From an uncultured Bacteroidia bacterium (lineage in GTDB: Bacteria > Bacteroidota > Bacteroidia > Bacteroidales > UBA932), in NCBI GenBank assembly GCA_902801885.1, contig CADCJX010000006.1:1-64000 (forward strand): 64,000 nt of DNA, read 5' to 3'. A program made the translations under genes and the position numbers. Shown piece by piece: positions 36,768 through 55,627 of this stretch (the stretch's first letter is position 1; every line of letters starts with the position of its first letter). Below the pieces are notes generated by a model that was given only the letters and a program-made list of their open reading frames with translations, was not told where the DNA came from and made no database searches.

Positions 36768-36783
36768 TGTTCCTATCGTACGA

Positions 36784-37737: not shown

Positions 37738-37773
37738 TAATACACCCGAAAACACTAATCAATCAATAACACA

Positions 37774-40377
37774 ATGAAAGCAATGAGATTTTTCCTGATG
37801 AGTTCTGCCGTCGCGGTCATGACTTTCATGGCCGCCTCCTGCAGTACAACTCCTGTAGGTGAGGTCGGGACAAAGATTCCCGCCCTTGATGATTCCGCAT
37901 GGAACGCCTCCAAGTGGATTTCAGTCGCCGACGCCCCGGTGATCACCGGCAAGATTGAAAACGGGAACCGCCGTGCAGCCGACGGAGCCAATTGGTTCAT
38001 GACCACTGTAAAGAATGACAAAAAGGTGACTTCCGCAAAGTGGATGACCGCCGGACTCGGCACCTATGACCTTTACGTCAACGGCAACCTTATCGGCAAG
38101 GAGTTCCTGAAACCGGGATTCACCCACTACGCCAAGACCAAACGTTCTTACACCTACGACATCACGGATGCATTCAAGACATCAGCCGGCGGACAGAATG
38201 TGCTTTCCGCACAAGTGACCCCCGGATGGTGGGCTGACAAGATAGTCACCCCCGGAGGGAACGACGGAATGATCGGAAAGAAATGCGCTTTCAGGGGCGT
38301 ACTCGAACTCACTTTCACCGACGGGACAAAGAAACTCTACGGGACAGACCTTGAAAACTGGAAAGCTGGAATAGCAGGCCCTATCAAGCATGCAGCCATC
38401 TTCGACGGTGAAGAGTATGATGCAAGGATTCCCCAGGGATTCGAGACTCCCGAAAAGTTCTCCGCTCCTGAGGAGAACTCTGAATTCCAGGGAGACATCC
38501 TTCCTTCTGAAGGAGCTGAGATCTACATGCGCGAGGATATCGCCCTCTCGCCCGTCAAGGCCTACGTTTGGAAAGACATAGAGGGAGCCAGCGAAGAAGA
38601 ATACGGCAAAGTCGTGATAACCAAGGAGTTTGCTCCTGGAGAGGAAATGGTCATCCACCAGGGTGAGACTCTGGTAATCGACTTCGGACAGAACGCAGCT
38701 GCCGTGCCATCATTCGTGTTCAAGGCCAAGGAAGGAACGGTGCTCACCTGCCTGCCTTCAGAGCTCCTGAACGACGGTAACGGTGCCAAGAGCCGCGGTA
38801 TGGACGGCCCCGAAGGAAGCTGCCACAGGACAAATCTCCGCATCGCAGACTGGGGAATCAGGCTTGACTACACCTTTGCAGACTCAAAGGATTTTGTCTG
38901 CTACAGGCCGACCCACACCTTCTTCGGCTACAGGCTGATCTCGGTCACCGCCACTGACGAAGTCACCATCAAGTCAGTAGAATCCATTCCTGTGACTTCG
39001 ATTGCCGAAGAGATCGAGACCGGAAAGATCACGACCGGCAACGACCTTATCAACAAACTGATTTCCAACACTGTCTGGGGACAACGTTCCAACTATCTTT
39101 CAGTCCCCACCGACTGCCCTCAGAGGGACGAGCGTCTCGGATGGACAGCCGACACCCAGGTCTTCACTGAGACCGGAACCTTCTTCGCCAACACCGACAA
39201 CTTCTTCCACAAGTGGATGCGTGACATGCGCGACACCCAGAACGAATTCGGTGCCTTCCCCGGAGTCGCCCCTCTTGCCCAGTACGGAGCCGAGAAGACT
39301 TCAATGATGAGGCTCGGATGGGCTGATGCCGGAATCATCGTTCCCTGGACTGTCTGGAAGCAGTTCGGTGACAAATCTATCATCGATGAGAACTGGGAGG
39401 CGATCGACCGCTTCATGAACCACATCAACGACACCAAGTACGACCATAAGACCCTGAGCGCCGAGAACGGAAACTACCAGTGGGCTGACTGGCTAAGCTA
39501 CGAACCCCTCGAGAGCAACGGAGGCGGAGCCTTCACAAGGGATAAGGACGGCAAGAGGATTCCTCTTCCTGACACCTATGTCTACTGGAACTACCTCAGC
39601 GCCTCCTACTGGGCCATCGATGCAGGAATGATGCGCGACATGGCTGCTGCCACAGGACGCGACGCTGCCAAGTACCAGGCTATGGAAGATGCCGCAAGGG
39701 CCTACCTCAAGGCTACATTCCTCGATGGGAAGGGCGGATTCAAGACCCCGATCCTCAACACCATGCAGACTCCTGCCCTCTTCGCCCTCAAGAACCACCT
39801 CGTAGAGGGTGCTGCAAAGGATAACCTGATCGCACGTCTGCGCCAGAATTTCGTCGACCACGGCAACTGCCTGCAGACCGGATTCCTCGGCACTTCCATC
39901 CTGATGGGTACCCTGACCGACAATGGCATGGTGGACATCGCCTACGAGCTCCTCTTCCAGAGGAAGAACCCCAGCTGGCTGTACTCAATCGACAATGGCG
40001 CCACCACCATCTGGGAGCGCTGGAACAGCTACACGCTCGAGTCCGGCATGGGTCCCAAGGGTATGAACAGTTTCAACCACTATGCCTATGGAGCTGTCTG
40101 CGCCTGGATCTGGGAGACCGTGGCCGGCATCGCAGCCGACACAGCACAGCCCGGTTTCAAGCACATCATCATGAAGCCCGTCCCCGACAAGAGACTCGGC
40201 AATGTCGACGCAGAATTCAAGTCAGCGGCCGGCCTGATCAAGAGTGCCTGGAAGTACGAAGGCGACAAGTGGATCTGGGAATTCACAGTTCCCGAAGGTG
40301 CCACCGCCACCGTCACCCTCCCCGGTGAGACCGAGTCAAAGGACTACACTGCCGGAACCTACAAAATTGAAAAGTAA
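37774..40377 (+). CDS. alpha-L-rhamnosidase, GH78, lipoprotein
   Basis: The 867-residue enzyme has a lipoprotein signal (Cys23 in MAASC; the start could also be the ATG three codons later), N-terminal beta domains including an alpha-L-rhamnosidase N region ('YDLYVNGNLIGKEFLKPGFTHY'), the (alpha/alpha)6 catalytic domain with TDCPQRDERLGW (general acid E453) and TTIWERWNSY (E748), and a C-terminal beta domain. 'GWTAD' replaces the usual 'GWTGD' but keeps the Asp. It is shorter than the GH78 at 13664-17329 and lacks its large insert. It is the first gene of the GH78-GH3-GH29 operon; the GH3 gene starts 12 bases after it. Confidence 0.93.
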   Translation: MKAMRFFLMSSAVAVMTFMAASCSTTPVGEVGTKIPALDDSAWNASKWISVADAPVITGKIENGNRRAADGANWFMTTVKNDKKVTSAKWMTAGLGTYDLYVNGNLIGKEFLKPGFTHYAKTKRSYTYDITDAFKTSAGGQNVLSAQVTPGWWADKIVTPGGNDGMIGKKCAFRGVLELTFTDGTKKLYGTDLENWKAGIAGPIKHAAIFDGEEYDARIPQGFETPEKFSAPEENSEFQGDILPSEGAEIYMREDIALSPVKAYVWKDIEGASEEEYGKVVITKEFAPGEEMVIHQGETLVIDFGQNAAAVPSFVFKAKEGTVLTCLPSELLNDGNGAKSRGMDGPEGSCHRTNLRIADWGIRLDYTFADSKDFVCYRPTHTFFGYRLISVTATDEVTIKSVESIPVTSIAEEIETGKITTGNDLINKLISNTVWGQRSNYLSVPTDCPQRDERLGWTADTQVFTETGTFFANTDNFFHKWMRDMRDTQNEFGAFPGVAPLAQYGAEKTSMMRLGWADAGIIVPWTVWKQFGDKSIIDENWEAIDRFMNHINDTKYDHKTLSAENGNYQWADWLSYEPLESNGGGAFTRDKDGKRIPLPDTYVYWNYLSASYWAIDAGMMRDMAAATGRDAAKYQAMEDAARAYLKATFLDGKGGFKTPILNTMQTPALFALKNHLVEGAAKDNLIARLRQNFVDHGNCLQTGFLGTSILMGTLTDNGMVDIAYELLFQRKNPSWLYSIDNGATTIWERWNSYTLESGMGPKGMNSFNHYAYGAVCAWIWETVAGIAADTAQPGFKHIIMKPVPDKRLGNVDAEFKSAAGLIKSAWKYEGDKWIWEFTVPEGATATVTLPGETESKDYTAGTYKIEK

Positions 40378-40389
40378 ACCGCACCTGCA

Positions 40390-42516
40390 ATGCGCAAGGC
40401 TCTCCTTTTAACAGCGGCTTTATTTGTCTGCGCCATATCCTTGGCGCAGACTTATCCTTTCCAAGACAAGAGCCTGAGTCCTGAGGAGCGTGCAGAGGAC
40501 CTGATTTCCCGACTTACAATCGAAGAGAAGACCGGCCTTACGATCAATGCGTCACAGGCCGTTCCTCGCCTTGGTATCAAGGATTATAACTGGTGGAACG
40601 AGGCATTGCACGGAGTAGGAAGGAACGGTTCAGCCACCACCTTCCCGATGCCGATCGGCATGGCAGCCTCCTTTGACGATGAACTGCTTGAGGACGTCTT
40701 CACCGCAGTCAGCGACGAGGCAAGGGTCAAGCACAGGATCGCAGACCAGGAAGGCTCGCACGGCATCTATCAAGGCCTGACTTTCTGGACCCCGAACATC
40801 AACATATTCCGTGACCCTCGGTGGGGGCGCGGGATGGAGACTTATGGGGAAGATCCATACCTGATGGGAAGGATGGGCATGGCGGTTGTCCGCGGCCTCC
40901 AAGGTCCTGATGACAGTCCCGTGCGCAAGCTCCAGGCATGTGCCAAGCATTTTGCAGTCCATTCAGGTCCGGAACCGGAACGTCACCGTTTCGATGCCAG
41001 GCCCGCGAGGCGCGACCTTTATGAGACCTATCTCCCTGCATTCAAGGATCTTGTCACCAAGGCAGGAGTCGAAGAAGTCATGACTGCCTACAACAGCTTC
41101 GAGGGCCAGCCATGCGGAGCCAGCGACTACCTTATTGACACCGTGCTGTACGGGAAATGGGGCTACAAGGGAGTGATCATCTCCGATGCCTGGGCAGTGG
41201 CCGACTTCTTCATGGAAGGCAGGCATGAATATGTAGAAGACCAGGCTACCGCTGCTGCCGTCGCAGTTAAGCATGGTGTGGATGTTGAATGTGGCCATGC
41301 CTATCAGGCAATTCCGGAGGCCATTGAGCGTGGACTTCTTACCGAAGCCGAGCTCGACCGCAACCTGAAAAGAATCATCGTTTCCCGCATCCGCCTCGGA
41401 GAAATCGATGGCCTTGATCCTTGGTCTTCACTGCCAGAAAGCATCGTAGAAGGTCCTGAACACCGGGCTCTTGCACTCAAGATGGCCAGGGAGACAATGG
41501 TGCTTCTTCAGAACCGCGGAGGCATACTTCCCCTTGACCCTGGCGTGAAAGTTGCCCTGGTCGGGCCTAATGCCGACGATGCTGCCATGCAATGGGGGAA
41601 CTACAATCCTATTCCTAAAGAGACCGTAACCCTGCTCGACGCCCTGAAGACCAGACTCGGAGACGTCAAGTACGTAAAGGGCTGCAGCCATCTTGAAGAA
41701 GAAACCCCAACAGAAGAGGTTCTCAAGGAGCTTGAAGGAATCGAAACCGTCATCTTCGCTTCCGGCATATCCTCAACTTACGAAGGAGAGATGGGAGACG
41801 CTGGTGGCTTTCCTGGATTCATGGGCGGGGACCGTACGAGCATCGAACTTCCCGCTGTCCAACGCGAGCTGATCAAATCATTGAAGGAAGCTGGCAAGAA
41901 GATAATCCTGGTCAACTTCAGCGGCTCAGCAATGGCTCTTGTTCCTGAGACCGGAAACTGCGAAGCCATACTCCAGGCCTGGTATCCGGGTCAGGAAGGT
42001 GGGACAGCCATCACCGACGTGCTGTTCGGTGACTACAATCCTTCAGGGAAACTTCCTGTCACGGTCTACAAGGATGACTCCCAGCTGCCTCCTTTCGTAG
42101 ACTACAGCATGAAGGGACGTACCTACCGTTTCTTCACGGATGCCCCCCTCTACCGGTTCGGCTACGGCCTTAGCTACACGTCATTCAAGGTAAGGCGGAT
42201 GCGCATCCGCGACGGGAAGGTGGTCGTCAAGGTCAAGAACACCGGGAAGAGGGACGGAGACGAGGTCATCCAGCTCTATTTGACCAGGCCTGACGACAAG
42301 GAAGGCCCCATCAGGACTCTCCGCGGCTTCAAGAGGGTAAGCATCCCTGCTGGGAAAAAGGTTAAGGTCGAAATCCCCATTTCGGACGAAACCTTCCTCT
42401 GGTGGGATGAGGCCTCTCAGGACATGGTCCCACAGCCCGGGAATTATGTCCTCCAGGTCGGCACTAGTTCCGCCCCGGAAGACCTGCTCAGGCGAAAATT
42501 CCGTTTCACGACTTAA
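40390..42516 (+). CDS. GH3 beta-glycosidase (xylosidase/glucosidase type), exported
   Basis: The 708-residue enzyme has a Sec signal peptide (about 1-19, ending SLAQ), then the GH3 catalytic domain with NWWNEALHGVG, which is frequent in beta-xylosidase/beta-glucosidase GH3 enzymes, 'DPRWGRGMETYGEDP', the nucleophile Asp266 in GVIISDAW, the alpha/beta sandwich domain, and a C-terminal fibronectin III-like domain from about 595. The exact sugar is not readable. It is only distantly like the GH3 at 17341-19593. It sits 12 bases after GH78 and 17 bases before GH29. Confidence 0.93.
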   Translation: MRKALLLTAALFVCAISLAQTYPFQDKSLSPEERAEDLISRLTIEEKTGLTINASQAVPRLGIKDYNWWNEALHGVGRNGSATTFPMPIGMAASFDDELLEDVFTAVSDEARVKHRIADQEGSHGIYQGLTFWTPNINIFRDPRWGRGMETYGEDPYLMGRMGMAVVRGLQGPDDSPVRKLQACAKHFAVHSGPEPERHRFDARPARRDLYETYLPAFKDLVTKAGVEEVMTAYNSFEGQPCGASDYLIDTVLYGKWGYKGVIISDAWAVADFFMEGRHEYVEDQATAAAVAVKHGVDVECGHAYQAIPEAIERGLLTEAELDRNLKRIIVSRIRLGEIDGLDPWSSLPESIVEGPEHRALALKMARETMVLLQNRGGILPLDPGVKVALVGPNADDAAMQWGNYNPIPKETVTLLDALKTRLGDVKYVKGCSHLEEETPTEEVLKELEGIETVIFASGISSTYEGEMGDAGGFPGFMGGDRTSIELPAVQRELIKSLKEAGKKIILVNFSGSAMALVPETGNCEAILQAWYPGQEGGTAITDVLFGDYNPSGKLPVTVYKDDSQLPPFVDYSMKGRTYRFFTDAPLYRFGYGLSYTSFKVRRMRIRDGKVVVKVKNTGKRDGDEVIQLYLTRPDDKEGPIRTLRGFKRVSIPAGKKVKVEIPISDETFLWWDEASQDMVPQPGNYVLQVGTSSAPEDLLRRKFRFTT

Positions 42517-42533
42517 ATAATCATTATCATAAC

Positions 42534-43862
42534 ATGAAAGCACTCAGAACCCTACTTGCAGTAACAGTCATGCTGGCAGCTTCTGCTGCAGCATATTCAC
42601 AGACTTACACCCCCTCGGAGGGGAACCTCCAGGCCAGGAAGGATTTCGTCAACGAACGTTTCGGAATATTCCTGCATTGGGGAATCTATGCATCCTATGC
42701 CCAGGGCGAATGGTACCTGAATAACGGCAAACTCAACAAGGATGAATACGCCAAGGCGGCCAGCGGCTTCTATCCGGCCAGGTACAATGCCGAAGAATGG
42801 GTGAAGGCGTTCAAGGATGCCGGAGCAGGTTATGTCACAATCACCTCCCGCCATCATGACGGCTTCTCCATGTTCGACACCAAGGCCTCGGACTACAACA
42901 TAGTCAAGGCAACTCCCTATGCCCACGATGTCATCAAGGATCTTGACGAGGCCTGCCTGAAGGAAGGTTTGAAACTCCAGTTCTACTATTCAATCCTTGA
43001 CTGGGAACGCGAGGACTACCCTATCGGCAATTCCGGAAAGTTTTCCGGAAGGAAAGGTGACCAGCAGGACTACAACCATTATTTCAATTTCATGAAGGCC
43101 CAGGTCAAGGAACTCCTTACTCAGTACCATACCCGCGCTCTCTGGTTCGACGGCTACTGGGACCATAGGAAGGACGAAGTTCCCTTCGACTGGAGGATGC
43201 CCGAGTTCTACGATTACATCCACTCCATCAACCCTGACTGCCTTATCTGCAACAACCATCACATCGCGCCGATAGACGGTGAGGACTACCAGACCTTCGA
43301 GAGGGATCTGCCCGGAAGGAACACCGCAGGCTTTTCCGAAGGACAGGAAGTAAGTGAGATCATACCTATCGAGATGTGCCAGACCATGAACCATTCATGG
43401 GGGTATTCAGTAGCCGACCAGGACTACAAGTCAGTCGGGACACTCATCCGCTTGCTGGCCCAGTGTGCCTCAATGAACAGCAACCTCCTCCTGAACATAG
43501 GTCCCCAGGCCAACGGAGAGCTTCCGGCTGCAGCTTTGGAGCGCCTCAAGGGCATGGGAGAATGGATGAGGGTCAACGGCGAATCCATCAGGGGATGCGG
43601 CCCCGGTCCTCTTGGCGAGCAGGAGTGGGGAGTCACTACTGCCCCTGTCGAGGGTGGAAAGACCTTCTACCTGCATCTCTTCAAGGATCCCGGCGCTGTC
43701 ATAGAAATACCTGTAGCCAAGAAAGCAAAGGTACTTAGCGTGACTGCACTTGACGGAGGCAAGGCGATCACCACAAAGAAAGTCGGCGAAAAGCTCTTTG
43801 TTACCGTTCCCGGTGAACTTCCCGCCGATTCTGACTATGTCATCAAGGTGACGCTCAAGTAG
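42534..43862 (+). CDS. alpha-L-fucosidase, GH29, exported
   Basis: The 442-residue enzyme cleaves alpha-linked L-fucose. It has a Sec signal peptide (about 1-22), the family motif SRHHDGFSMF, and the nucleophile Asp206 in ALWFDGYWD. The catalytic domain begins 'FGIFLHWGIYASYAQGEWY', and a beta-sandwich C-terminal domain follows from about residue 355. The branch (GH29-A or B) is not clear to me. It is the last gene of the plus-strand glycosidase operon and is convergent with the uronate operon, 19 bases away. No clear terminator is seen between them. Confidence 0.93.
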   Translation: MKALRTLLAVTVMLAASAAAYSQTYTPSEGNLQARKDFVNERFGIFLHWGIYASYAQGEWYLNNGKLNKDEYAKAASGFYPARYNAEEWVKAFKDAGAGYVTITSRHHDGFSMFDTKASDYNIVKATPYAHDVIKDLDEACLKEGLKLQFYYSILDWEREDYPIGNSGKFSGRKGDQQDYNHYFNFMKAQVKELLTQYHTRALWFDGYWDHRKDEVPFDWRMPEFYDYIHSINPDCLICNNHHIAPIDGEDYQTFERDLPGRNTAGFSEGQEVSEIIPIEMCQTMNHSWGYSVADQDYKSVGTLIRLLAQCASMNSNLLLNIGPQANGELPAAALERLKGMGEWMRVNGESIRGCGPGPLGEQEWGVTTAPVEGGKTFYLHLFKDPGAVIEIPVAKKAKVLSVTALDGGKAITTKKVGEKLFVTVPGELPADSDYVIKVTLK

Positions 43863-43881
43863 CTGTCCGAAGAAAGCTCTT

Positions 43882-44721
43882 CTAGACCCCGCCGAAGGCG
43901 CTGTAGCCGCCATCGACGGGGATTATTACACCCGTAACGAATGACGAGATGTCGCTCAGCAGGTAAAGCATGGTGCCTACCAGGTCCTCTGGCTCACCGA
44001 ACTTGTGGGTCGGGGTATTCGCAATGATCTTCTCTCCCCTTGGTTTGAGGGCTCCTGTAGCTTCATCAGTAAGCAAGAAGCGGTTCTGGTCTGTAAGGAA
44101 GAACCCCGGAGCTATGGCATTGCATCTGATACCCATCTGGGCCACATGGACTGCGAACCACTGGGTGAAATTGTTGATGGCACCCTTGGCTGCTGAATAT
44201 GCAGGGATCTTGGTAAGGGGGCGGATTGAGTTCATCGAGGAGATGTTCAGCACGTTCCCCTTTCCGGCTTCGAGCATGTCCTGGGTAAAGACCATGGTTG
44301 CAAGCAAAGTGCCTTTGAAATTGAGGTCGAAGACTTGGTCGAAGCCTCCGAGGTCGAGGCCGTAGAATGTGCTGCCAAGATCGATTCCGGGTTCCATCTG
44401 CTCAGCAGCGCAGGTTGCCTTCGGAGAGTTACCTCCTGCACAGTTGATCAGTATATCAATCTTGCCGAGCTTTTCATGGATAAGATCCCGTGCAGCCTCC
44501 AGGCCAGCTTTGTCAAGCGTACTGGCAGAGATGCCGATGCACTTTACTCCGAATTCTGCAGCGATTGCCTCTCCCTTTGCGGGATTGTCTGCGCTGCGGC
44601 TGATAACGGCCAGGTTGACTCCGGCCTGCGCCAGTCCCCTCGTCAGGGCCATGCCTATCACACCGAATCCGCCGGTGATCACACAATTACGACCTTTCAG
44701 GTCATCAAATGAATATTTCAT
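43882..44721 (-). CDS. D-fructuronate reductase (mannonate oxidoreductase), UxuB/YjmF-type SDR
   Basis: The 279-residue NAD(P)-dependent SDR has the cofactor loop TGGFGVIG (16-23), NCAGG near 93, Ser161/162, and Tyr175/Lys179 in PAYSAAKGAINNF. The stretch from there through NAIAPGFFLTDQN to the C-terminal 'VDGGYSAFGGV' is close, from memory, to B. subtilis YjmF, the SDR-type fructuronate reductase. The reaction is D-mannonate to and from D-fructuronate. The frame opens to 44958, but 44721 starts the SDR fold and the upstream part is hairpin-containing leader. It is the last gene of the operon after gnd (61-base gap with a hairpin). Confidence 0.82.
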   Translation of the reverse strand: MKYSFDDLKGRNCVITGGFGVIGMALTRGLAQAGVNLAVISRSADNPAKGEAIAAEFGVKCIGISASTLDKAGLEAARDLIHEKLGKIDILINCAGGNSPKATCAAEQMEPGIDLGSTFYGLDLGGFDQVFDLNFKGTLLATMVFTQDMLEAGKGNVLNISSMNSIRPLTKIPAYSAAKGAINNFTQWFAVHVAQMGIRCNAIAPGFFLTDQNRFLLTDEATGALKPRGEKIIANTPTHKFGEPEDLVGTMLYLLSDISSFVTGVIIPVDGGYSAFGGV

Positions 44722-44753
44722 ACCGTATCTCACTTTGGTTTCATCTTTTTCTG

Positions 44754-44776
44754 GCTGGAAGGAGGTCTCTTCCAGC
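44754..44776 (-). promoter_or_regulatory. hairpin between gnd and the SDR gene
   Basis: GCTGGAAG and CTTCCAGC (8 bp, 7-base loop) in the 61-base gap. There is no T-run after it on the minus strand, so it looks more like an mRNA processing or stability element than a terminator. Confidence 0.5.
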
Positions 44777-44782
44777 TCAATA

Positions 44783-46240
44783 CTAAACCGTATAAGTGCC
44801 GGAGACGGTGTCGCCGCCGTGGCCAGTCCAGTTTGTATGGAAGAATTCACCGCGCTGGCGGTCGGTCCTCTCGTATGTATGGGCACCGAAATAGTCTCTC
44901 TGCGCCTGGAGCAGGTTGGCCGGGAGCCTCTCGGTACGGTAGCCGTCATAATATTCAAGGGCGGCGGTCATGCAAGGAGCAGGTACGCCGTTGACGACGG
45001 CCTGGGCAATGACATTCCTCCATCCCTTCTGGGCATCCGAGAGTTTCTCCTTGAAATAGGGATCCAGCAGGATATTGGCAATCATCGGATTATTGTCAAA
45101 GGCCTCCTTGATCTTGCCGAGGAAGACACTCCTGATGATGCAGCCGCCTCTCCAGAGAAGTGCTATGCCGCCATAATTAAGGTCCCAGCCATATTCCTTG
45201 GCTGCGGCCCTCATCAAGGAATAACCTTGAGCATATGAGACCACCTTGGAAGCGAAAAGAGCGCGCCTGAGGTCTTCCAGGAAGGCTTCCCGGTCACCGG
45301 TAAACTTCACGGGACGAGGTCCATCGAGGATCTTAGATGCCTCTACTCTTTCCTCCTTCAATGCCGACAGGCAGCGGGCATAGACGGACTCACTTATCAA
45401 GGTCAGTGGTTCACCGAGGTCGAGTGCGGAAATAGCTGTCCATTTGCCAGTACCCTTCTGGCCGGCTGTGTCAAGAATATAATCCAACACATACTTTCCA
45501 TCCTCATCCTTCTTGGCAAGGATGTCGCGGGTAATTTCGATCAGATAGCTGTCAAGGTCGCCCTTGTTCCATTCGGCAAAGGTCTGGTGCATTTCCTCGT
45601 TTGTCATTCCGAGAATGTCCTTCATGATCTGGTAGCACTCACAGATGAGCTGGATGTCACCGTATTCGATACCGTTATGGACCATCTTCACGAAATGGCC
45701 GGCCCCACCCTGGCCTACCCAGTCACAGCATGGTGTGCCGTCTGCTACCTTGGCGCTTATGCCCTGGAAGATTGGCTTGACATAGGGCCACGCAGCCGGC
45801 GAGCCGCCTGGCATCATTGACGGGCCCTTGAGGGCACCTTCTTCGCCACCGGAGACTCCTGTGCCGATGTAGAGGAGACCTTTGCTCTCGACATATTCCG
45901 TCCTGCGGGCGGTGTCGGGGAAATGGGTGTTGCCACCGTCTATGATTATGTCTCCCTTGTCCAGGAGCGGAATAAGTTTCTCGATGAAATCATCGACGGG
46001 TTTTCCAGCCTTAACCATCAGGAAGACCTTCCTGGGGCTTTTGAGGGACTCTACGAAATCCTCAAGGGAATGGGCTCCATAGAAATTGAGGCCCTTGCCC
46101 CGCCCTTCCATGAAATGGTCGACTTTCTCGACCGTACGGTTGTAGACACTGACATGGAACCCTTTGCTCTCCATGTTGAGGGCCAGGTTCTCACCCATAA
46201 CCGCCAGACCTACAAGTCCGATGTCTGATACTGCTTTCAT
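44783..46240 (-). CDS. gnd: 6-phosphogluconate dehydrogenase, decarboxylating
   Basis: The 485-residue enzyme converts 6-phosphogluconate to ribulose-5-phosphate with CO2 release. The NADP-binding [12 protein letters not shown] is at 10-21; [17 protein letters not shown] and [13 protein letters not shown] provide substrate-binding and catalytic Lys residues; the C-terminal helical domain ends with '[11 protein letters not shown]'. The length is typical of the long form. It lies between the LarA-like gene (46-base gap with a perfect palindrome) and the SDR gene. In this setting it would consume 6-phosphogluconate made from uronate-derived gluconate as well as from glucose-6-phosphate. Confidence 0.96.
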
Positions 46241-46261
46241 TCTTTTTTTCCTTTATTTCCT

Positions 46262-46281
46262 TGTCAAGGGGCCCCTTGACA
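46262..46281. promoter_or_regulatory. perfect 20-bp palindrome between the LarA-like gene and gnd
   Basis: TGTCAAGGGG joined directly to CCCCTTGACA. A second 10-bp palindrome ATAACGTTAT lies at 46281-46290 and includes the stop of the LarA-like gene. As RNA it would form an 8-bp hairpin with loop GGCC; as DNA it is a strong candidate operator. Confidence 0.6.
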
Positions 46282-46286
46282 TAACG

Positions 46287-47564
46287 TTATACAAATCTGG
46301 AAGGATGGGCCCAGAGGCCTAGGGCAGGATTGGAAATGTAGTAGACCTCCTCTCCGTCAGGCATGATGTTCCACCCGTCTTTCATCCGGTCCGCCGGATA
46401 GCGCTTCATGATCGCGGCAAGGTCGCCATAGGCAAATCCTACATTCTCGATTTCCTCCTTGCCCATTGCCGGACCTGGACAGTAGGTGATCTTGAACCTA
46501 CCCTCCGAAGACCCATGAATAAGATGGGCAGAGGCGCTCAGGTTATCCTGGAGATCCTTGTTAGCTTCAGTAGCTTCCAGGGTGTGAGGAGTACCCTTGT
46601 AACCATATTTCCTGATGAGAGCATCTATCGTCGGGTCCTCACCGAACTCCTTGAGGGCAGGAGCCATGATGATCAGGTCAGCTCCGTCAGCGAGTGCCAT
46701 CCTGGTGCGGTAAACCGCCTTGTTGCCAAGCCAGGTGCTCTTGAACTCAGCAGGATCAAGATAGACAAGGCATTTGCGGATCTCGTGGTCGACCATTATG
46801 AAATTTGTTTCGAGCGACAGCTTGGAAGCCTTCTCGAAGCACTCGAAATCATCTCCGATGAACAGGCCGCGGGTCACGATCCCACCAGTCGCCTCATCTT
46901 TTGCCCTGACAGTAAGGATGTACACTATAGGCAGGTCCGGAATGAAATGTACCCTGGCATATTCAAGTACATCACGGACAGGAGTCCTGGCCCTTCCCAT
47001 TATCCGCTCCATCCCATAGGAGGCACCAAGGAAGTGGCTCTTGTTTATTCCTTCCGCACCACCGACACCTACGAATATGTTCTTGGTGTAATTGGCCATG
47101 CCGATGACCTCATGAGGCACCACCTGTCCGACAGACAGGATAAGGTCGAACGAAGTGTCTAGGAGCAACTTGTTTACCTGGGCAGGCCATGAATAGTTGA
47201 CACGGCCCTCAGAGACCTTGCTGAGATACTCCGCTGGAACTTCGCCTACAGTGACAACGTCGTTGCGCCAGTCATGGACGCGGAACTTTCCTGCAGGCAC
47301 ACCTGCGTACATTGTCCCGATCTGTTCCTCCGTCATTGGAGTATGGGTGCCGAGAGCTGGCATGACGTCAGTCAGGGCATCTCCGAAATAGTCGTTTACC
47401 ATCCTGGTGATCGGACCGGCATGCGAATTCAACCTGGTGAAATCGGGAGGAATGGCAAGGACCCTCCTCCGAGGGCCCATGCTGTCAAAAACTTCCCTAA
47501 GGATGTCGTTCAGTTCTGGATCAGATATGATGTCTGTCTTAGAACCTCTTGCGAAATAGAGCAT
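46287..47564 (-). CDS. LarA-superfamily nickel-pincer racemase/epimerase, candidate D-gluconate 2-epimerase
   Basis: The 425-residue protein has the lactate racemase (DUF2088) fold. The catalytic set of LarA can be placed: DFTR (Asp41, Arg44), His74 in LGTHTPM, His151 in VPHEVIG, the cofactor-binding Lys161 exactly ten residues later, and His177 sixteen after that. All match LarA (D72/R75, H108, H174, K184, H200) by motif and mostly by spacing. So it should use the nickel-pincer nucleotide cofactor. Members act on 2-hydroxyacids; one group is known, from memory, as D-gluconate 2-epimerase. The gene context (mannonate-forming SDR, gnd, sugar kinase) fits mannonate to gluconate. LarB, LarC and LarE are not in this window. 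Confidence 0.8.
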   Translation of the reverse strand: MLYFARGSKTDIISDPELNDILREVFDSMGPRRRVLAIPPDFTRLNSHAGPITRMVNDYFGDALTDVMPALGTHTPMTEEQIGTMYAGVPAGKFRVHDWRNDVVTVGEVPAEYLSKVSEGRVNYSWPAQVNKLLLDTSFDLILSVGQVVPHEVIGMANYTKNIFVGVGGAEGINKSHFLGASYGMERIMGRARTPVRDVLEYARVHFIPDLPIVYILTVRAKDEATGGIVTRGLFIGDDFECFEKASKLSLETNFIMVDHEIRKCLVYLDPAEFKSTWLGNKAVYRTRMALADGADLIIMAPALKEFGEDPTIDALIRKYGYKGTPHTLEATEANKDLQDNLSASAHLIHGSSEGRFKITYCPGPAMGKEEIENVGFAYGDLAAIMKRYPADRMKDGWNIMPDGEEVYYISNPALGLWAHPSRFV

Positions 47565-47567
47565 GGC

Positions 47568-48644
47568 TTAGCGTTTTACTCTTGCATTACCGTTCCAGAT
47601 ACTCCAGACCTGGTCTTCATCAGCAGGCTGGGCATAATCGGTAAGGAAAGTCGTAGCGAGAGCTCCGCAGGCCCAGCCGAACTGGATCCACTTCTCAGGC
47701 TCCCAACCCTTCAGTATTGCATAGAGAAGACCTCCTACAAAACCGTCGCCTCCACCGATCCTGTCCAGGACATGGATAGGCCTGGGTTCGACGACATGCC
47801 AGGTCTCACCTTCGAGCATTATAGCTCCCCAGTTGTGGCTATTCGCATCATTGACCTGGCGCAGGGTAGTGGCAAAGACCTTGGCTGAAGGATATTCAGC
47901 CTTCACCCTGCGGATCATTTCCTTGAAGCCATCGATCTTAGAAGAAATGTCCTTGCCTCCGGCTTCCGGGCCCTGGATTCCAAGACAAAGCTGGAAATCC
48001 TCTTCATTACCGATCAGGATGTCGGCCAGGGAGCAAATCTCGCTGAATATGGCCCGGAGCTCCTCTTCCCTTCCGGCCCAGAAAGACGCCCGGTAGTTGA
48101 GGTCGAAACTGATCATCGTTCCGTACTCCTTGGCCTTCCTTGCGATTTCCAGGCAGAACTTTCCCGTGTCCGGACTGAGTGCAGAGATAAGTCCAGAGAG
48201 ATGAACGATCCTGACGCCTTCCTGCCCGAAGATCCTGTCAAGGTCGAAGTCCTTGACATTCAAAGTCCTTCCAACTTCTCCCGCACGGTCGTTCCAGACC
48301 CTTGGGCCGCGGGATCCATAGCCGCTGTCCGCCACATTGATCTGGTGACGGTAGCCCCATGGACCGCCTTGAGGCACGTCCGGGCCCTCGAAGTCCATTC
48401 CGCGCGAACGGAGATTGGACTTGATGAAGGCTGCAAAAGGACTGTCCTTCACGAATGCTGTGAGAACCTTGACCGGCAGTCCGAGATAGGAGGAGATGCT
48501 GGCCACGTTGGTCTCGGCACTGGTGGCCTGAAGACGGAACATGTCACTCGAATGGACAGGCTGGCCGTTTTCAGGTGTAACACGCAGGCCCATGCTGGTC
48601 GGAACCAGCATGGCGTACCTGCAGTTATTCTTGCTGTTATCCAT
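47568..48644 (-). CDS. PfkB-family sugar kinase (gluconate or 2-keto-3-deoxygluconate kinase)
   Basis: The 358-residue ribokinase-fold enzyme has the catalytic motif DRIGGGDGF (base Asp300), the 'TSAETNVA' substrate region, and FDLNYRASFW at 180-189, a motif common in KDG kinases. Automatic naming would be 2-dehydro-3-deoxygluconokinase. But no dehydratase that makes KDG is near, whereas its neighbours would make and use gluconate and 6-phosphogluconate, so gluconate kinase is an equally good reading. The LarA-like gene starts three bases after its stop; the GH2 gene ends 18 bases before its start. Confidence 0.82.
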   Translation of the reverse strand: MDNSKNNCRYAMLVPTSMGLRVTPENGQPVHSSDMFRLQATSAETNVASISSYLGLPVKVLTAFVKDSPFAAFIKSNLRSRGMDFEGPDVPQGGPWGYRHQINVADSGYGSRGPRVWNDRAGEVGRTLNVKDFDLDRIFGQEGVRIVHLSGLISALSPDTGKFCLEIARKAKEYGTMISFDLNYRASFWAGREEELRAIFSEICSLADILIGNEEDFQLCLGIQGPEAGGKDISSKIDGFKEMIRRVKAEYPSAKVFATTLRQVNDANSHNWGAIMLEGETWHVVEPRPIHVLDRIGGGDGFVGGLLYAILKGWEPEKWIQFGWACGALATTFLTDYAQPADEDQVWSIWNGNARVKR

Positions 48645-48662
48645 GATACGGATTATGGATGA

Positions 48663-50549
48663 CTATTTAGTAGGCATGGACTTGATAACTCCGACGTTGA
48701 CATCATGGAGTTTCTTCTCATCCATCTTGATGACCTTGCGGTCGTAAGTCATGATTCCGTTGACCTCGATCTCCACGTCGGTCGTCTGGGTGTAGACGGC
48801 TGCGCAGCAACCCTGCTTGATGAGCTGCTTGAGCTGCTCGGCGAAGGAGGCGTACTCGGCAAGGACTTCGTCACCGTTCTTGTACTGGACATAGCCCCAG
48901 TTCTTGTCTGCCTGCCAGAGATGGCCCTCTACAGGGAAACCTATACCGCCGTACTCGCCCAGGACGTTGATCATGTTCTTGTCCCACATCCTCATTGCAG
49001 GATAAGGATAATGGTGGTTGTCGAGGATGTCACCGACACCTTCCTCCCAGTTGCCGCCTGAAGACTGGTTGACGAGCCTGGTCGGATCGAGTTTCTTGGT
49101 GTAAGCCACGACTTCCTTGGTGTCGAACTGGCTCCAAGCCTCGTTGAAAGGAACCCATACGACGATACACTGGAATTTCTTGACCTGGTTCATGATCTCA
49201 GTCCACTCCTTGTAGTAGTTGGCCTTTGCCTCGGGTGTAGCGGGGAAATCCTCGCCCTCGCCGTAGTAGTACATGCCCCACTTGCCCTTCCTGTTGTCGG
49301 AGAAGGAAGGCATGTCCTGCCAGACAAGCATTCCGAGCTGGTCGCAGTAGTAGAACCAGCGGTCGGGCTCGACCTTGATGTGCTTGCGGATCATATTGAA
49401 GCCGAAGTCCTTGGTCTTCTGGATATCGAACTTGAGAGCCTCGTCGGTAGGGGCGGTGTAGAGTCCGTCAGGCCACCAGCCCTGGTCGAGAGGACCGAAC
49501 TGGAAGAGAGCCTCGCCGTTGAGTCCCATCAGTTTTGTGTTGCTGTTCTTCTGGTAGACGGAAATCTCGCGCATGGCAGTGTAGGCAGCTACCCTGTCGA
49601 CGATCTTGCCGGCCCTGAGGATCTGGATGTCCAATCCGTAGAGATAAGGAGAGTCTGGAGACCAGAGCTTGGGACTCGGGACATTGAGGGTCACGCTTCC
49701 GCCGGGAGCCGCCATTCCGGAAGCAAGGACTGCATACTGGCCGTCCTTTGCCGCCTTGGCTGCATTGACAGTCTCGGTTGAATAGCCTATGCCTCCATCG
49801 AGAAGGAATACCTTCACGACATCGCCCTCCTGGACACCTGCAGCATCCACGGTGACATCGATGGATTTGCTCTTGAGGCAGGAGACTACGTTGTAGTCTG
49901 TGATATGGGTGGGAGCGACAGGCTCAATCCACACGCTCTGCCAGATTCCGGAAACCGGAGTGTACCAGATTCCGCGGGGGTTGGCGACCTGCTTTCCGCG
50001 AGGCTGGAAATCATCGTCAGTAGCATCCTCTACCCTCACCACCAGGTTGTTGGCTCCGCTCTTGAGATAAGGTGTGACATCGAATGAGAAATGAGTGTAA
50101 CCGCCTGTGTGGGTACCGACTTTTACATCATTCACGAAAACTTCCGCCTTCCAGTCAACTGCATCGAAGTTGAGCATGAGACGTCTTCCCTTCCATGCTG
50201 AAGGCACGGTGAACTCCGTCCTGTACCAAAGGGCATCGTCAGCAGTCACGGTACGTCCTACTCCTGAAAGAGCAGATTCAACTGCAAAGGGGACAAGGAT
50301 CTTGCCGTCAAAGGTCGAAGGCTTCGCCTGTGACTTGGGAGTTATTGAATAATCCCAAAGTCCGTTGAGCGATTTCCAATCGGTGCGGACCATCTGGGGA
50401 CGTGGATACTCAGGATGTGCATTCGAAGGAGAAACTTCCTCTGCCCATTTTGTCTTGATCCTGTCTCCCGCGGGAGCCCACTGCTGTGCTGAGGCGCTGC
50501 CGACAAATGCAAGGGCGGCAGCAACCATAGTGATAAATCTGGATTTCAT
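48663..50549 (-). CDS. GH2 beta-glycosidase (galactosidase/glucuronidase-like), exported
   Basis: The 628-residue enzyme has a Sec signal peptide (about 1-21), a sugar-binding jelly-roll domain ('LWYRTEFTVPSAW', 'WKAEVFVNDVKVGTHTGGY'), an immunoglobulin-like domain (about 215-325) and a TIM barrel with the acid/base E470 in VWVPFNEAW and nucleophile E532 in NVLGEYGG. The N-x-K motif that marks classic beta-glucuronidases is not present; the region reads 'EVNGIMTYDRK'. The activity may thus be beta-galactosidase or another beta-glycoside of an acidic sugar. It is the first gene of the operon that ends with the SDR. A -7-like box is at 50589-50596. Confidence 0.9.
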   Translation of the reverse strand: MKSRFITMVAAALAFVGSASAQQWAPAGDRIKTKWAEEVSPSNAHPEYPRPQMVRTDWKSLNGLWDYSITPKSQAKPSTFDGKILVPFAVESALSGVGRTVTADDALWYRTEFTVPSAWKGRRLMLNFDAVDWKAEVFVNDVKVGTHTGGYTHFSFDVTPYLKSGANNLVVRVEDATDDDFQPRGKQVANPRGIWYTPVSGIWQSVWIEPVAPTHITDYNVVSCLKSKSIDVTVDAAGVQEGDVVKVFLLDGGIGYSTETVNAAKAAKDGQYAVLASGMAAPGGSVTLNVPSPKLWSPDSPYLYGLDIQILRAGKIVDRVAAYTAMREISVYQKNSNTKLMGLNGEALFQFGPLDQGWWPDGLYTAPTDEALKFDIQKTKDFGFNMIRKHIKVEPDRWFYYCDQLGMLVWQDMPSFSDNRKGKWGMYYYGEGEDFPATPEAKANYYKEWTEIMNQVKKFQCIVVWVPFNEAWSQFDTKEVVAYTKKLDPTRLVNQSSGGNWEEGVGDILDNHHYPYPAMRMWDKNMINVLGEYGGIGFPVEGHLWQADKNWGYVQYKNGDEVLAEYASFAEQLKQLIKQGCCAAVYTQTTDVEIEVNGIMTYDRKVIKMDEKKLHDVNVGVIKSMPTK

Positions 50550-50588
50550 TATTAGAATAAGTGTTTTAAAATGTCGAGTTCAATATTA

Positions 50589-50616
50589 CAAATATACTCA
50601 TTATTTATTAATTTTG
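50589..50616. promoter_or_regulatory. divergent -7 boxes for the GH2 operon and cstA
   Basis: CAAATATA at 50589-50596 is a minus-strand TATATTTG box, 40 bases before the GH2 ATG. TAATTTTG at 50609-50616 is a plus-strand box 27 bases before the cstA ATG. -33 boxes are not convincing. Confidence 0.4.
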
Positions 50617-50643
50617 TATAATGCCCTTTATAGGAAGATTGCC

Positions 50644-52113
50644 ATGTTTTCACTCATCCTCAGCCTCATCGCCCTAATCCTGGGCTACATGCTTTACGGG
50701 AAATTCGTAGAGAGGGTTTTCGGACCGGATAAAAGCCGCACGACCCCCGCAATCGACAAAGCGGACGGCGTAGACTTCGTCCCGCTCCCCACTTGGAAGG
50801 TGTTCATGATCCAGTTCCTGAACATTGCCGGAACCGGACCGATCTTCGGGGCCATCATGGGTGCCAAATTCGGGCCTTCCGCCTATCTCTGGATCGTGCT
50901 GGGATGTATCTTCGCGGGAGCGGTCCATGACTACCTTTCCGGGATGCTTTCAGTAAGGCACGGAGGAGCGGGACTCCCTGAGATCATCGGCACCTACCTT
51001 GGCAACGGCACCAAGAAGGTAGTCCTGGTCTTCACGGTCGTGATGCTGACCCTTGTTGCTGCAGTATTCGTCTACAGTCCTGCTATCATCCTCGGCGACA
51101 TCGCCGGAGACGGGACAGCCAAGGCGATCATGATCTGGGTCGGAGTTATATTCATCTACTATTTCATCGCCACCATGCTTCCGATCGACAAAGTGATCGG
51201 AAGGTTCTACCCTATCTTCGCATTCGCATTGATCTTCATGGCGGTCGCCCTCCTGGCTGGCCTTCTGGTCAAATGGCCCTCCATCCCCGAGCTTTGGGAC
51301 GGCCTTGCCAACCGCGGTCCTTCGGTCGGAGTCAACGGACAGCCCATATTCCCCTGCCTCTTCATAACCATTGCCTGCGGAGCCATAAGCGGCTTCCACG
51401 CAACCCAGAGTCCGCTGATGGCACGATGCCTCAAGAATGAAAAGCTAGGACGGCCGGTGTTCTATGGCTCGATGATCACCGAAGGACTCGTGGCCCTGGT
51501 CTGGGCGGCGGTATCATCCTACTTCTTCTTCGACGGAGGAGCAGCGGAGTGCGGATCGGACCTCACGGCTGCAGCCCCTACGGTGGTCACCGCCGTCTCT
51601 AAATCATGGTTGGGAATCCTTGGAGGCATTCTTGCCATCCTCGGCGTTGTAGCAGCCCCCATAACCAGCGGCGACACTGCCCTCAGAAGTTCCAGGCTTA
51701 TCATCGCCGATTTCATCAAGCTTGACCAGAAACCTATCCGCAACAGGCTGCTCATCAGCATCCCCCTGTTCATAGCCACCGGTATCCTGCTCTGGTTCAA
51801 CATCGCTGACTCCAACGGCTTCAACACCATCTGGAGATACTTCGGCTGGTCGAACCAAACCCTTGCCGTGTTCACCCTCTGGGCCATCACTGTCTACCTG
51901 CTAAGGGACAAGAAAGGAATGCAGTATCTTATCAGCGGCATCCCGGCGGCGTTCATGACAGCCGTGAGCATTACATTCATCCTCGTAGACAAGGTCGGAT
52001 TCGGGGTCAATGCGGCAATTGCACCGTGGATCGGACTTGCAACTTTCACAATTGCGGGAGCCATCCTGTCGGGCTTGAAGATGCATCATGACAACCAAAT
52101 GAAAGACAATTAA
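50644..52113 (+). CDS. cstA: carbon starvation protein A, peptide/pyruvate transporter-like
   Basis: The 489-residue membrane protein begins MFSLILSLIALILGYMLYGKF and has about 12-14 membrane segments. The family hallmarks 'VLGCIFAGAVHDYLSGM' and 'GAISGFHATQSPLMARC' are present. CstA family proteins take up peptides or pyruvate and respond to carbon limitation in E. coli. The frame opens to 50365, but those residues lie in the opposite gene and promoter region; 50644 gives the true N-terminus. It is the short form usual in Bacteroidetes. The HerA-like ATPase gene starts 14 bases downstream. Confidence 0.93.
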   Translation: MFSLILSLIALILGYMLYGKFVERVFGPDKSRTTPAIDKADGVDFVPLPTWKVFMIQFLNIAGTGPIFGAIMGAKFGPSAYLWIVLGCIFAGAVHDYLSGMLSVRHGGAGLPEIIGTYLGNGTKKVVLVFTVVMLTLVAAVFVYSPAIILGDIAGDGTAKAIMIWVGVIFIYYFIATMLPIDKVIGRFYPIFAFALIFMAVALLAGLLVKWPSIPELWDGLANRGPSVGVNGQPIFPCLFITIACGAISGFHATQSPLMARCLKNEKLGRPVFYGSMITEGLVALVWAAVSSYFFFDGGAAECGSDLTAAAPTVVTAVSKSWLGILGGILAILGVVAAPITSGDTALRSSRLIIADFIKLDQKPIRNRLLISIPLFIATGILLWFNIADSNGFNTIWRYFGWSNQTLAVFTLWAITVYLLRDKKGMQYLISGIPAAFMTAVSITFILVDKVGFGVNAAIAPWIGLATFTIAGAILSGLKMHHDNQMKDN

Positions 52114-52127
52114 TATCATTCAAGAAT

Positions 52128-53717
52128 ATGTACGACTCCAACAACGGGCTTTGGATAGCCCACTGCGACAAAGGTCCTCTCTCGATAGTCGGGAAGATGG
52201 CCAACAGGCACGGACTCGTGGCCGGAGCCACCGGTACAGGAAAGACCGTCACCCTACAGGTCATGGCAGAAAGTTTCTGCCAGGCCGGTGTTCCCTGCTT
52301 CATGGCCGACATGAAGGGAGACCTTTCAGGAATCTCGCAGGCCGGAAAGACCAGCGGATTCATAGAGAAAAGGATGCCGGAGTTCGGAATCGAAGATCCA
52401 AAGTTCCAGAGTTGCCCTGTCCGCTTCTATGACGTTTTCGGGGAGCAGGGCCACCCGATGAGGTGTACCATCTCACAGATGGGCCCGCAGCTCCTGACCA
52501 GGATACTCGGGCTGAACGACACCCAGGAGGGAGTGCTGAACATCCTTTTCAGGATCGCTGACGAAAGGGGGCTGCTGCTGGACGACATCAAGGATCTCAG
52601 GTCATGCCTCAATTTCATCTCAGAGCATGCTTCTGAATATTCACAGATCTACGGTAACATCGCTCCCGCATCTGTCGGAGCTATACAAAGATCGCTTCTG
52701 ACCCTCGAGAACGAAGGCGCTGACAAATTCTTTGGACAGCCTTCTTTCGACATCTACGACCTTCTCGCCACTGAAGGCGGCAAGGGAGTCATGAGCGTCC
52801 TGGCGGCCGACAAGCTGATGCTCAAGCCTAAGCTCTACTCAACCTTCCTGCTCTGGCTGCTTTCCGAGCTTTATGTCACCCTGCCGGAAGTTGGAGACAT
52901 GGACCTCCCTAAACTGATATTCTTCTTCGACGAGGCACACATGCTGTTCGACGGTACTTCCAAGGCCCTTGTCGACAAGATCGAGCAGGTGGTCCGCCTC
53001 ATCCGAAGCAAGGGTGTCGGGGTCTATTTCGTGACGCAGAGCCCGACCGATATCCCTGACAACATCCTCGGTCAGCTTGGCAACCGTGTGCAGCATGCCC
53101 TCCGCGCTTTCACTCCCAGAGACCAGAAGGCCGTCCAGGTCGCTGCTGACACTTTCAGGACAAATCCTGAATTCAACACCTATGAGGCTATAACGAGCCT
53201 GGGCACCGGCGAGGCCCTGGTTTCATTCCTCGATGAAAAGGGAGCTCCGAGCATGGTCCAGAAGGCCAAGATACTCTTCCCGCTGAGCCAGATCGGAGCC
53301 ATCGATGAGAGCCAGAGAAGCCAGCTGATCAAGCAGTCCAAGATCTACGGCAAATACGACAAACTGGTCGAGAGGGAGAGTGCCTTCGAGGTCCTGATGG
53401 CCGAAAGGGAAGCTCAGCTCAAAGAGGCCCAGGAAGAGAAAGAAGAAAAGGGTGGTAAATCATCAAAGGCCGCCAAGGTACCCGAAACCAAGAAGAACGG
53501 AGTCTTCGGCAAGGTTGCAAAGGCTGTCATCACTGCGGTGACAGCAACTCTGGCCACAGCCGTAGGCAACGAGGTCTCCAGCCGCGTCACCGGCAAGAAG
53601 AAAACCGGTTCGGCCAAGGAGAGTGCAGGGAAGGTGGTGAAGAACGCCACCAGCGCCGCTACACGTACCATAACCCGCGAGATCACCCGCTCGATCCTGG
53701 GCAACCTCGGGAAATAG
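52128..53717 (+). CDS. HerA-like ATPase, DUF853/YjgR family
   Basis: The 529-residue protein has a RecA-like motor domain with Walker A GATGTGKT at about 30-40 ('HGLVAGATGTGKTVTLQ'), Walker B 'KLIFFFDEAHMLF' at about 258-270 and an arginine-finger region near 'QSPTDIPDNILGQLGNRVQHALRA'. It matches the DUF853/YjgR family of FtsK/HerA-like ATPases, of unknown role. The tail (about 425-529) is Lys/Ala/Thr-rich and disordered. It lies 14 bases after cstA and is convergent with rsmD, 20 bases apart. Confidence 0.88.
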   Translation: MYDSNNGLWIAHCDKGPLSIVGKMANRHGLVAGATGTGKTVTLQVMAESFCQAGVPCFMADMKGDLSGISQAGKTSGFIEKRMPEFGIEDPKFQSCPVRFYDVFGEQGHPMRCTISQMGPQLLTRILGLNDTQEGVLNILFRIADERGLLLDDIKDLRSCLNFISEHASEYSQIYGNIAPASVGAIQRSLLTLENEGADKFFGQPSFDIYDLLATEGGKGVMSVLAADKLMLKPKLYSTFLLWLLSELYVTLPEVGDMDLPKLIFFFDEAHMLFDGTSKALVDKIEQVVRLIRSKGVGVYFVTQSPTDIPDNILGQLGNRVQHALRAFTPRDQKAVQVAADTFRTNPEFNTYEAITSLGTGEALVSFLDEKGAPSMVQKAKILFPLSQIGAIDESQRSQLIKQSKIYGKYDKLVERESAFEVLMAEREAQLKEAQEEKEEKGGKSSKAAKVPETKKNGVFGKVAKAVITAVTATLATAVGNEVSSRVTGKKKTGSAKESAGKVVKNATSAATRTITREITRSILGNLGK

Positions 53718-53737
53718 GGATTCCGTCCGACGGACAA

Positions 53738-54268
53738 TTATTCAAAGAAAGAGAAGTGCACGCGACCGTAGCGCTTCTCTTTTTTGAAGCGTGGATGGCC
53801 GGTGAATGAATGTTCGTCGCCGTGCTCGAGGATGAAATAACAACCTGGGTGCAGGATGTCCTGGGCGAAGACCTTGTCAGGCAGGGTTTCAAGCCCTTCC
53901 AGAGCATAGGGTGGGTCAGCGAACACTATGTCGAACTTTTCGTGACAGATGGGCAGAAAATCGAAGACATTGTCCCTTACCATGGTCACATTGTCGAGGC
54001 CCAGCCGCCTGGCCTCGGTTTTGATGAAGGACGCATTCTCCCTGGCCATCTCAACGGAATATACCCTGGCGGCTCCACGGGAAGCAAACTCGAAGGCTAC
54101 GGCTCCGGTGCCGCCGAAAAGGTCAAGCACCTTCAGGTCTTCGAACTCATATTCATTGCCAAGGATGTTGAAAAGACCTTCCCGGGCGAAATCGGTCGTA
54201 GGCCTTGCCTTGTAACCGGCAGGTGGGTTGATAGTCTTGCCTTTCAGGCGTCCTCCAATGATCCTCAT
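53738..54268 (-). CDS. rsmD: 16S rRNA (guanine966-N2)-methyltransferase
   Basis: The 176-residue SAM-dependent methyltransferase has the start 'MRIIGGRLKGKTINPP', a glycine-rich SAM motif 'LDLFGGTGAVAFEFASRGA' near 49-66 and the catalytic NIVFADPPYAL (N-terminal [ND]PPY, here DPPY) near 113-123. It modifies G966 of 16S rRNA during 30S assembly. The gene overlaps the DUF3822 gene by four bases, a pairing often seen in Bacteroidetes. Confidence 0.94.
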   Translation of the reverse strand: MRIIGGRLKGKTINPPAGYKARPTTDFAREGLFNILGNEYEFEDLKVLDLFGGTGAVAFEFASRGAARVYSVEMARENASFIKTEARRLGLDNVTMVRDNVFDFLPICHEKFDIVFADPPYALEGLETLPDKVFAQDILHPGCYFILEHGDEHSFTGHPRFKKEKRYGRVHFSFFE

Positions 54269-54786: not shown

Positions 54787-54794
54787 GCACAGTC

Positions 54795-55511: not shown

Positions 55512-55568
55512 TATCCTTAGAATTTTATGATTTGCAATCAGGTGTATAGACTAAGCGTCAATTCTGGA

Positions 55569-55599
55569 CAAAGTTAGAAAATTGATTTATGAAATGCAA
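55569..55599 (-). promoter_or_regulatory. promoter of the 54795-55511 gene and rsmD operon
   Basis: Minus strand: -33 box ATTG at 55600-55597 (TTG core), 20-base spacer, -7 box TAACTTTG at 55576-55569. Confidence 0.6.
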
Positions 55600-55610
55600 T
55601 ATAATATTTG

Positions 55611-55618: not shown

Positions 55619-55627
55619 CTGCTGCAA

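Follow-up and report, generated by a model that had tools for sequence, protein, structure and literature searches.

How does D-mannonate leave hexuronate catabolism in a bacterium in which no mannonate dehydratase (UxuA) is found? The question is raised by an operon of an uncultured Bacteroidia bacterium (Bacteroidales, UBA932; assembly GCA_902801885.1), located in a window of 64,000 nucleotides (positions 1 to 64,000 of the forward strand of CADCJX010000006.1), which corresponds to contig C6 of the 2.46-Mb genome G000 (completeness 99.24%). Transcribed from the minus strand, the operon codes for a GH2 glycoside hydrolase, a PfkB-family kinase (KinX), a LarA-superfamily group 18 homologue (LarAH18), 6-phosphogluconate dehydrogenase (Gnd) and a short-chain dehydrogenase/reductase (SDR), in this order and with gaps of 18, 3, 46 and 61 bases. 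Genes, order, strand and gaps are exactly as stated in the original prediction made from the sequence alone, and Pfam agrees with its family names. We propose, with a probability of roughly two thirds (0.68), that the operon specifies the later steps of a route from hexuronates into the pentose phosphate pathway; its substrates, step order and flux are what we infer from gene content and homology. UxaC, encoded elsewhere in the genome, would convert D-glucuronate to D-fructuronate, which the SDR would reduce to D-mannonate. LarAH18 would invert C2 to give D-gluconate, KinX would phosphorylate the latter to 6-phosphogluconate, and Gnd would yield ribulose-5-phosphate, CO2 and NADPH.

Three of the family names also exceed NCBIfam cut-offs. 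Gnd (44783..46240, minus strand, 485 aa; Pfam 6PGD and NAD_binding_2) scores 771.5 bits against the TIGR00873 equivalog (cut-off 426.7). The SDR (43882..44721, minus strand, 279 aa; Pfam adh_short) belongs to the UxuB/YjmF-like D-mannonate oxidoreductase subfamily and scores 341.5 bits against PRK08277 (D-mannonate oxidoreductase, cut-off 281); its start is the internal ATG at 44721, while the mechanically called frame begins at a TTG at 44958. LarAH18 (P0003; 46287..47564, minus strand, 425 aa; Pfam Lar_N), the putative D-mannonate/D-gluconate 2-epimerase, is a member of NF052594, "nickel-dependent putative hexonate epimerase" (634.9 bits, cut-off 500). In the same scan of the operon proteins, GH2 and KinX stayed below every NCBIfam cut-off.

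A search of 149 genomes of the order for the epimerase gave matches in 23, and 22 of these, the present genome included, exceeded the cut-off. These 22 carriers were compared with 16 non-carriers, each at least 90% complete; four listed genomes under 90% completeness, G003 with its weak match and 106 further non-carriers stand outside this panel. Gnd of the operon type is present in all 22 carriers and in none of the non-carriers (Fisher p 4.5e-11, phylogeny ignored), being incomplete in two carriers (in G074 only 60 residues at the end of a contig, in G136 two pieces). All ten near relatives searched have it as well (G163 in two pieces), and two non-carriers have short Gnd relatives at 34-40%. 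The present genome has one Gnd, the only match to the operon gene found. The KinX clade is similarly confined to carriers (17/22 vs 0/16), and UxaC, which the original prediction had noted as missing from the operon, is encoded elsewhere in the genome and is found in 20 of the carriers and 7 of the non-carriers. TIGR00695 (UxuA) has no match at E 0.001 in this genome; above the cut-off UxuA occurs in 8/22 carriers vs 5/16 non-carriers. Glucose-6-phosphate dehydrogenase (Zwf) was not found in eight carriers, this genome among them, and is present in 14 carriers and two non-carriers; the ten near relatives gave two matches, both under the cut-off. The two panel non-carriers with Zwf are G004 and G019, where it adjoins a Gnd relative of about 300 aa whose type differs from the operon Gnd (G004:C33:10335-12720, G019:C71:7407-9901).

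As neither UxuA nor Zwf turned up, the operon would serve this genome as its sole identified outlet for mannonate and its sole identified source of 6-phosphogluconate, no search having been aimed at Edd or other gluconate kinases. UxaC, the single Gnd, these two absences and a separate 2-keto-3-deoxygluconate (KDG) kinase (KdgK) are consistent with the continuous path from fructuronate to ribulose-5-phosphate that had been predicted. The prediction had this path run with no mannonate dehydratase, KDG kinase step or KDPG aldolase; for the genome as a whole, the lack holds for UxuA and fails for the other two: KdgK and KdgA are present together with KduI, and KdgA is found in 17/22 carriers vs 7/16 non-carriers. 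G008, of the same genus, has UxaC, UxuA, KdgK and KdgA and lacks the epimerase, Gnd and the operon kinase. Since G008 has only the UxuA exit and the present genome only the epimerase, kinase and Gnd, the mannonate exits appear to be swapped within one genus.

The gene set recurs in other genomes. Neighbours were counted on the epimerase strand, the kinase at 55% identity or more and the SDR down to about 29%; SDR, LacI and UxaE matches were taken at any identity passing the script filter, so that some are generic. Among 21 other carrier loci of the order, SDR genes were found in 21, Gnd in 18, a PdxB-like gene in 15, LacI in 14, the operon kinase in 11 and UxaC in 7. A second set comprised the best 80 loci of named genomes kept from at least 579 relatives, many of them ending at contig ends; here Gnd was counted in 51, SDR in 50, the operon kinase in 45, the PdxB-like gene in 36, LacI in 22, UxaE in 17 and UxaC in 11. 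Taxa named among the loci are Bacteroidota, Ignavibacteria, Verrucomicrobia, Acidobacteria and one Spirochaetota genome, and hexuronate-type transporters recur along with UxaC, UxaE and LacI. As SDR, Gnd and kinase genes recur beside the epimerase in related genomes, a check that the original prediction had suggested, their grouping is not due to chance. Some loci (e.g., L106, L034, L040) also hold UxuA, KdgK or KdgA, so two exits can coexist. The PdxB-like 4-phosphoerythronate dehydrogenase gene (L032 10203-11342), often located between epimerase and Gnd, is absent from the window operon.

The epimerase resembles enzymes acting on free hexonates. The only PDB sequence match to P0003 at E 0.001 is 4nar (E 2.6e-29). 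Its predicted structure (pLDDT 88.3, lowest near the cofactor loop) also retrieved 4nar first in Foldseek (E 2.6e-25, TM 0.77; other LarA-family entries 0.45-0.69). 4nar is Thermotoga maritima GntE2, which epimerises D-mannonate to D-gluconate (PMC7583248; this and the other papers are cited for those parts of them that were available). The same paper places LarA groups 18, 19 and 20 together by signature, hypothesises a hexonate as the group 18 substrate, and gives D72, R75, H108, H174, K184, H200 and K298 as the catalytic residues of LarA and those binding the nickel-pincer nucleotide (NPN). When P0003 is placed on the LarA numbering with the help of motifs and this residue list, these correspond to D41, R44, H74, H151, K161, H177 and K282, invariant in 102/102 homologues. 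The GntE substrate signature, E, V, A and H at LarA positions 175, 176, 358 and 359 (PMC11770544), is held by P0003 as E152, V153, A346 and H347; E and V are kept in 102/102 homologues, A in 99 (two S, one gap) and H in 101 (one gap). Among the matches listed, the closest relatives (84-87% identity) come from Bacteroidia/Bacteroidales assemblies, mostly of rumen, other gut and faeces, and the epimerase of Ca. Cryptobacteroides merdipullorum is 76% identical.

KinX (P0002; 47568..48644, minus strand, 358 aa; Pfam PfkB) is the putative gluconate or mannonate 6-kinase. If it were a KDG kinase instead, the operon would represent a modified form of the classical route (UxuA-KdgK-KdgA) with Gnd as a passenger. 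The solved kinase closest to KinX by sequence, 2afb, is indeed a KDG kinase, and R120 and R185, which presumably bind the carboxylate, are common to KinX and KdgK, as are D300 and the PfkB fold (2afb, 1v19; NF041633). However, when P0002 relatives of 65% identity or more (56 sequences) are aligned with 14 KdgKs, these three residues are shared, while S42, A43, N103, N118 and L149 of KinX replace G34, G35, Y89, Y104 and W133 of KdgK, each conserved at 95% or more within its group; we take these five KdgK residues to line the KDG pocket. Against NF041633 (cut-off 700, reached by neither) KinX scores 176 bits and the genome's own canonical KdgK 500. The latter is encoded on contig C4, adjoining KdgA, KduI, a LacI-type gene, a transporter and an SDR, and both kinases share one locus in other carriers (e.g., L030). 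The predicted structure of KinX is poorer than that of the epimerase (pLDDT 74, residues 93-126 under 50), its top fold matches being a Listeria PfkB kinase with unstated substrate and 2afb. KinX is probably distinct from KDG kinase as judged by these residues; with UxuA not found, a canonical KdgK encoded beside KdgA elsewhere and Gnd strictly tied to the epimerase in the panel, a KDG kinase reading of the operon is hardly credible.

Where KinX is lacking, a gene resembling PPi-type phosphofructokinase (NF010675) lies between SDR and epimerase (L032 6677-8904; also L044, L048, L049, L143 and L146), accompanied there by a HAD-like gene (by eye; no NCBIfam match). Four of the five panel carriers without KinX have this pair (G074, G038, G022 and G136, not G006), and a non-orthologous replacement of KinX is possible.

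Routes of this kind are already known: versions have been published for T. maritima and Lactobacillus suebicus. In T. maritima, growth on pectin upregulates the aldH-pelB-gnd-uxaRED-gntEK genes (PMC3750489), and GntE2 probably lets mannonate into the pentose phosphate pathway (PMC7583248, citing Rodionova 2012). T. maritima and the present bacterium both have one hexuronate operon that combines Gnd with a LarA-type mannonate/gluconate 2-epimerase (putative here) and a sugar-acid (in T. maritima, gluconate) kinase, the combination that marks a T. maritima-type shunt, and in both the mannonate carbon would enter the pentose phosphate route. The kinase family differs: PfkB-type here, GntK in T. 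maritima, which we take to be FGGY-type. The epimerases belong to groups 18 and 20, respectively, with 21% identity over the fold alignment. T. maritima, used as a control, matches the LarC, UxuA and glucose-6-phosphate dehydrogenase searches, whereas none of the three was found in the present genome. Its set also includes UxaE, of which no member was found among the open reading frames (ORFs) of window positions 36001-56000 or of this genome's loci L157 and L158, the regions searched. With the Ashwell route (UxaC-UxuB-UxuA-KdgK-KdgA) the present genome shares UxaC and the fructuronate reductase step, but there mannonate goes to KDG via UxuA, while here it would become gluconate. Uronate loci including that of Algoriphagus show no GntE in the available part of PMC5507952. 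The operon is a Bacteroidota variant with another kinase family and another epimerase group, and its PfkB-type kinase clade is new for this route and spread over Bacteroidota and beyond.

A number of observations weigh against the proposed route. The SDR of the C4 locus, a gluconate 5-dehydrogenase by NCBIfam (465.6 bits, cut-off 369), is possibly another user of gluconate, judging by this match. UxaC was not found in two of the 22 carriers, UxuA coexists with the epimerase in eight, and 14 have Zwf, so that Gnd could serve the classical path there. The literature searched gave no enzyme activity for group 18. Known GntEs have high KM values for D-mannonate (17 and 120 mM; PMC7583248), the KM of LarAH15 is 9.4 mM (PMC11770544), and because the GntE values are so high the true substrate may differ. 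Finally, extracts of L. suebicus turn mannonate into 6-phosphogluconate by phosphorylation followed by a 6-phosphomannonate 2-epimerase (PMC6978723), and LarB, LarC and LarE, the genes for NPN synthesis, were not found in the present genome.

The L. suebicus galacturonate route likewise starts with UxaC and UxuB, ends with Gnd and bypasses UxuA, KdgK and KdgA, and differs in the kinase acting first, in its genes not being identified in the available part of that source and in belonging to another phylum. On its account the epimerase-before-kinase order of the original prediction has to be left open. Were KinX to phosphorylate D-mannonate, the LarA-type enzyme would then epimerise 6-phosphomannonate to 6-phosphogluconate. 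This order would suit the SDR-kinase-epimerase-Gnd arrangement of many loci and the high KM of the free-acid GntEs, but the pocket signature of LarAH18 equals that of GntEs acting on free acids, and we consider it unlikely, though it is the main rival of the proposed route.

The first gene of the operon, GH2 (48663..50549, minus strand, 628 aa; Pfam GH2 domains over the cut-off, an apparent signal peptide by eye), bears on the kind of sugar acid used. Its closest solved structures are 7sf2 (718 bits), a beta-D-galactofuranosidase (485) and, scoring far lower, the beta-glucuronidase 7xyr (250). The NxK motif, usual for such enzymes, is not evident by eye. Neither these scores nor the available part of a GH2 subfamily paper (PMC12243196) decided whether GH2 is a beta-glucuronidase. 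A close GH2 (70-87%) lies upstream of the operon in three of the 26 nearest loci. As GH2 resembles galactofuranosidase more than glucuronidase, the sugar source of the operon is unclear. The operon might then serve another hexonate, e.g., a mannonate isomer, with Gnd acting on a common end product, which would also agree with no group 18 assay having turned up in that literature. We rate this as improbable, since the SDR is assigned to D-mannonate oxidoreductase, UxaC and UxaE recur as neighbours and the epimerase has the GntE signature. The mannonate to gluconate route stays the preferred reading.

LarC had no match in the profile search of this genome. LarB gave only a 167-aa open frame (44 bits, cut-off 175), PurE-like by size, and LarE matched four times, never above 40.1 bits (cut-off 150): three times in genes for GMP synthase and argininosuccinate synthase and once in a TilS-like gene (by eye) of the window. 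Directly beside its full-length GMP synthase gene, the genome has another GMP synthase-like one of 327 aa that covers the C-terminal part (C5, L170 6852-9465). P0003, a group 18 member with all NPN-binding and catalytic residues, is encoded in a genome where the synthesis genes were not found by these profiles. The original prediction called the pathway nickel-dependent; the usual genomic support for this is missing, and with LarB, LarC and LarE not found nickel dependence should not be taken for granted, though it is plausible from the residues. Taken together, that prediction holds for the genomics of the route and needs correcting on KdgK and KdgA, novelty, step order and nickel.

In the panel, LarB, LarC and LarE are all present above the cut-offs in 13 carriers and all absent from nine, including the present genome. 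Incompleteness of the assemblies is an unlikely cause here, the nine being 92-100% complete. A second LarA homologue occurs in only four of these 13; without these four, the synthesis genes occur in 9/18 carriers vs 1/16 non-carriers (p 0.008), which suggests that they serve this epimerase where present. The one non-carrier with all three is G016, where no LarA homologue was found. LarC alone was sought in 50 of the 80 named genomes and found in none of the 26 nearest relatives, whose completeness is not stated, and in 13 of 24 others. On a quick tree of 72 rows, LarC presence takes at least nine changes, five forced by starred branches, gain and loss being undistinguished. Divergent shorter LarC genes (268-284 aa, low scores, two pieces) were noticed in Marinilabiliaceae-type genomes (G143:C1:596618-598040 and the genomes of L103, L106 and L112), with a divergent LarB (186 bits) in G143.

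Relaxed selection after loss of the cofactor was considered and not seen. The dN/dS of the epimerase in nine LarC-less pairs is 0.034-0.076, rough values, since five of these pairs have dS over 1. LarC-less pairs give an epimerase/kinase distance ratio of 1.45 and LarC pairs one of 1.42, and the epimerase/Gnd ratio is slightly higher in the LarC-less (1.48 vs 1.36). Overall, carriers without LarC show no clear decay in the cofactor and catalytic residues or in the selection estimates. This leaves uptake of the cofactor, its synthesis by genes other than the known ones, or its replacement. We tentatively suggest, at somewhat less than even odds, that NPN is shared, many Bacteroidales lacking its synthesis genes while keeping an intact epimerase under selection, which would be loaded with NPN or a late precursor from neighbouring cells; otherwise another synthesis route or another cofactor would have to be assumed. 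ORF clustering of the 26 nearest loci, with crude ORF picking and several antisense clusters, revealed no further conserved transporter-like gene beside the epimerase that could serve NPN. The reverse case, LarB, LarC and LarE without LarA, is found in about 15% of genomes (PMC11796402), and a published case of a LarA-type carrier without the three was not encountered within the literature searched.

Other features in and around the operon are less telling. A perfect 18-base palindrome (46263..46280, minus strand; by eye) without a T-run after it is located in the gap between LarAH18 and Gnd. The pattern TTTG-N17-23-TAnnTTTG, which we take to be the Bacteroidetes promoter consensus, occurs at five places in the window and at none by the operon; a lone TATATTTG was seen by eye 39 bases upstream of the GH2 start. 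On the plus strand, three adjacent glycoside hydrolase-like genes (37774-43862), by eye similar to rhamnosidase, GH3 and fucosidase genes, run convergently towards the end of the operon.

If the proposed route is right, the KinX clade would be a gluconate/mannonate kinase, which none of the matched Pfam or NCBIfam models names as such, and uronates would feed an oxidative branch of the pentose phosphate pathway in bacteria with Gnd but without detectable glucose-6-phosphate dehydrogenase. In carriers without Zwf, if cofactor sharing is true as well, uronate-derived NADPH and pentose phosphate would rest on a cofactor that the known genes cannot make. The gap in LarB, LarC and LarE makes the origin of NPN directly testable, the epimerase being kept under strong purifying selection. 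For bacteria of the rumen and gut, the route would mean that NADPH and pentose phosphate come from uronate-bearing glycans.

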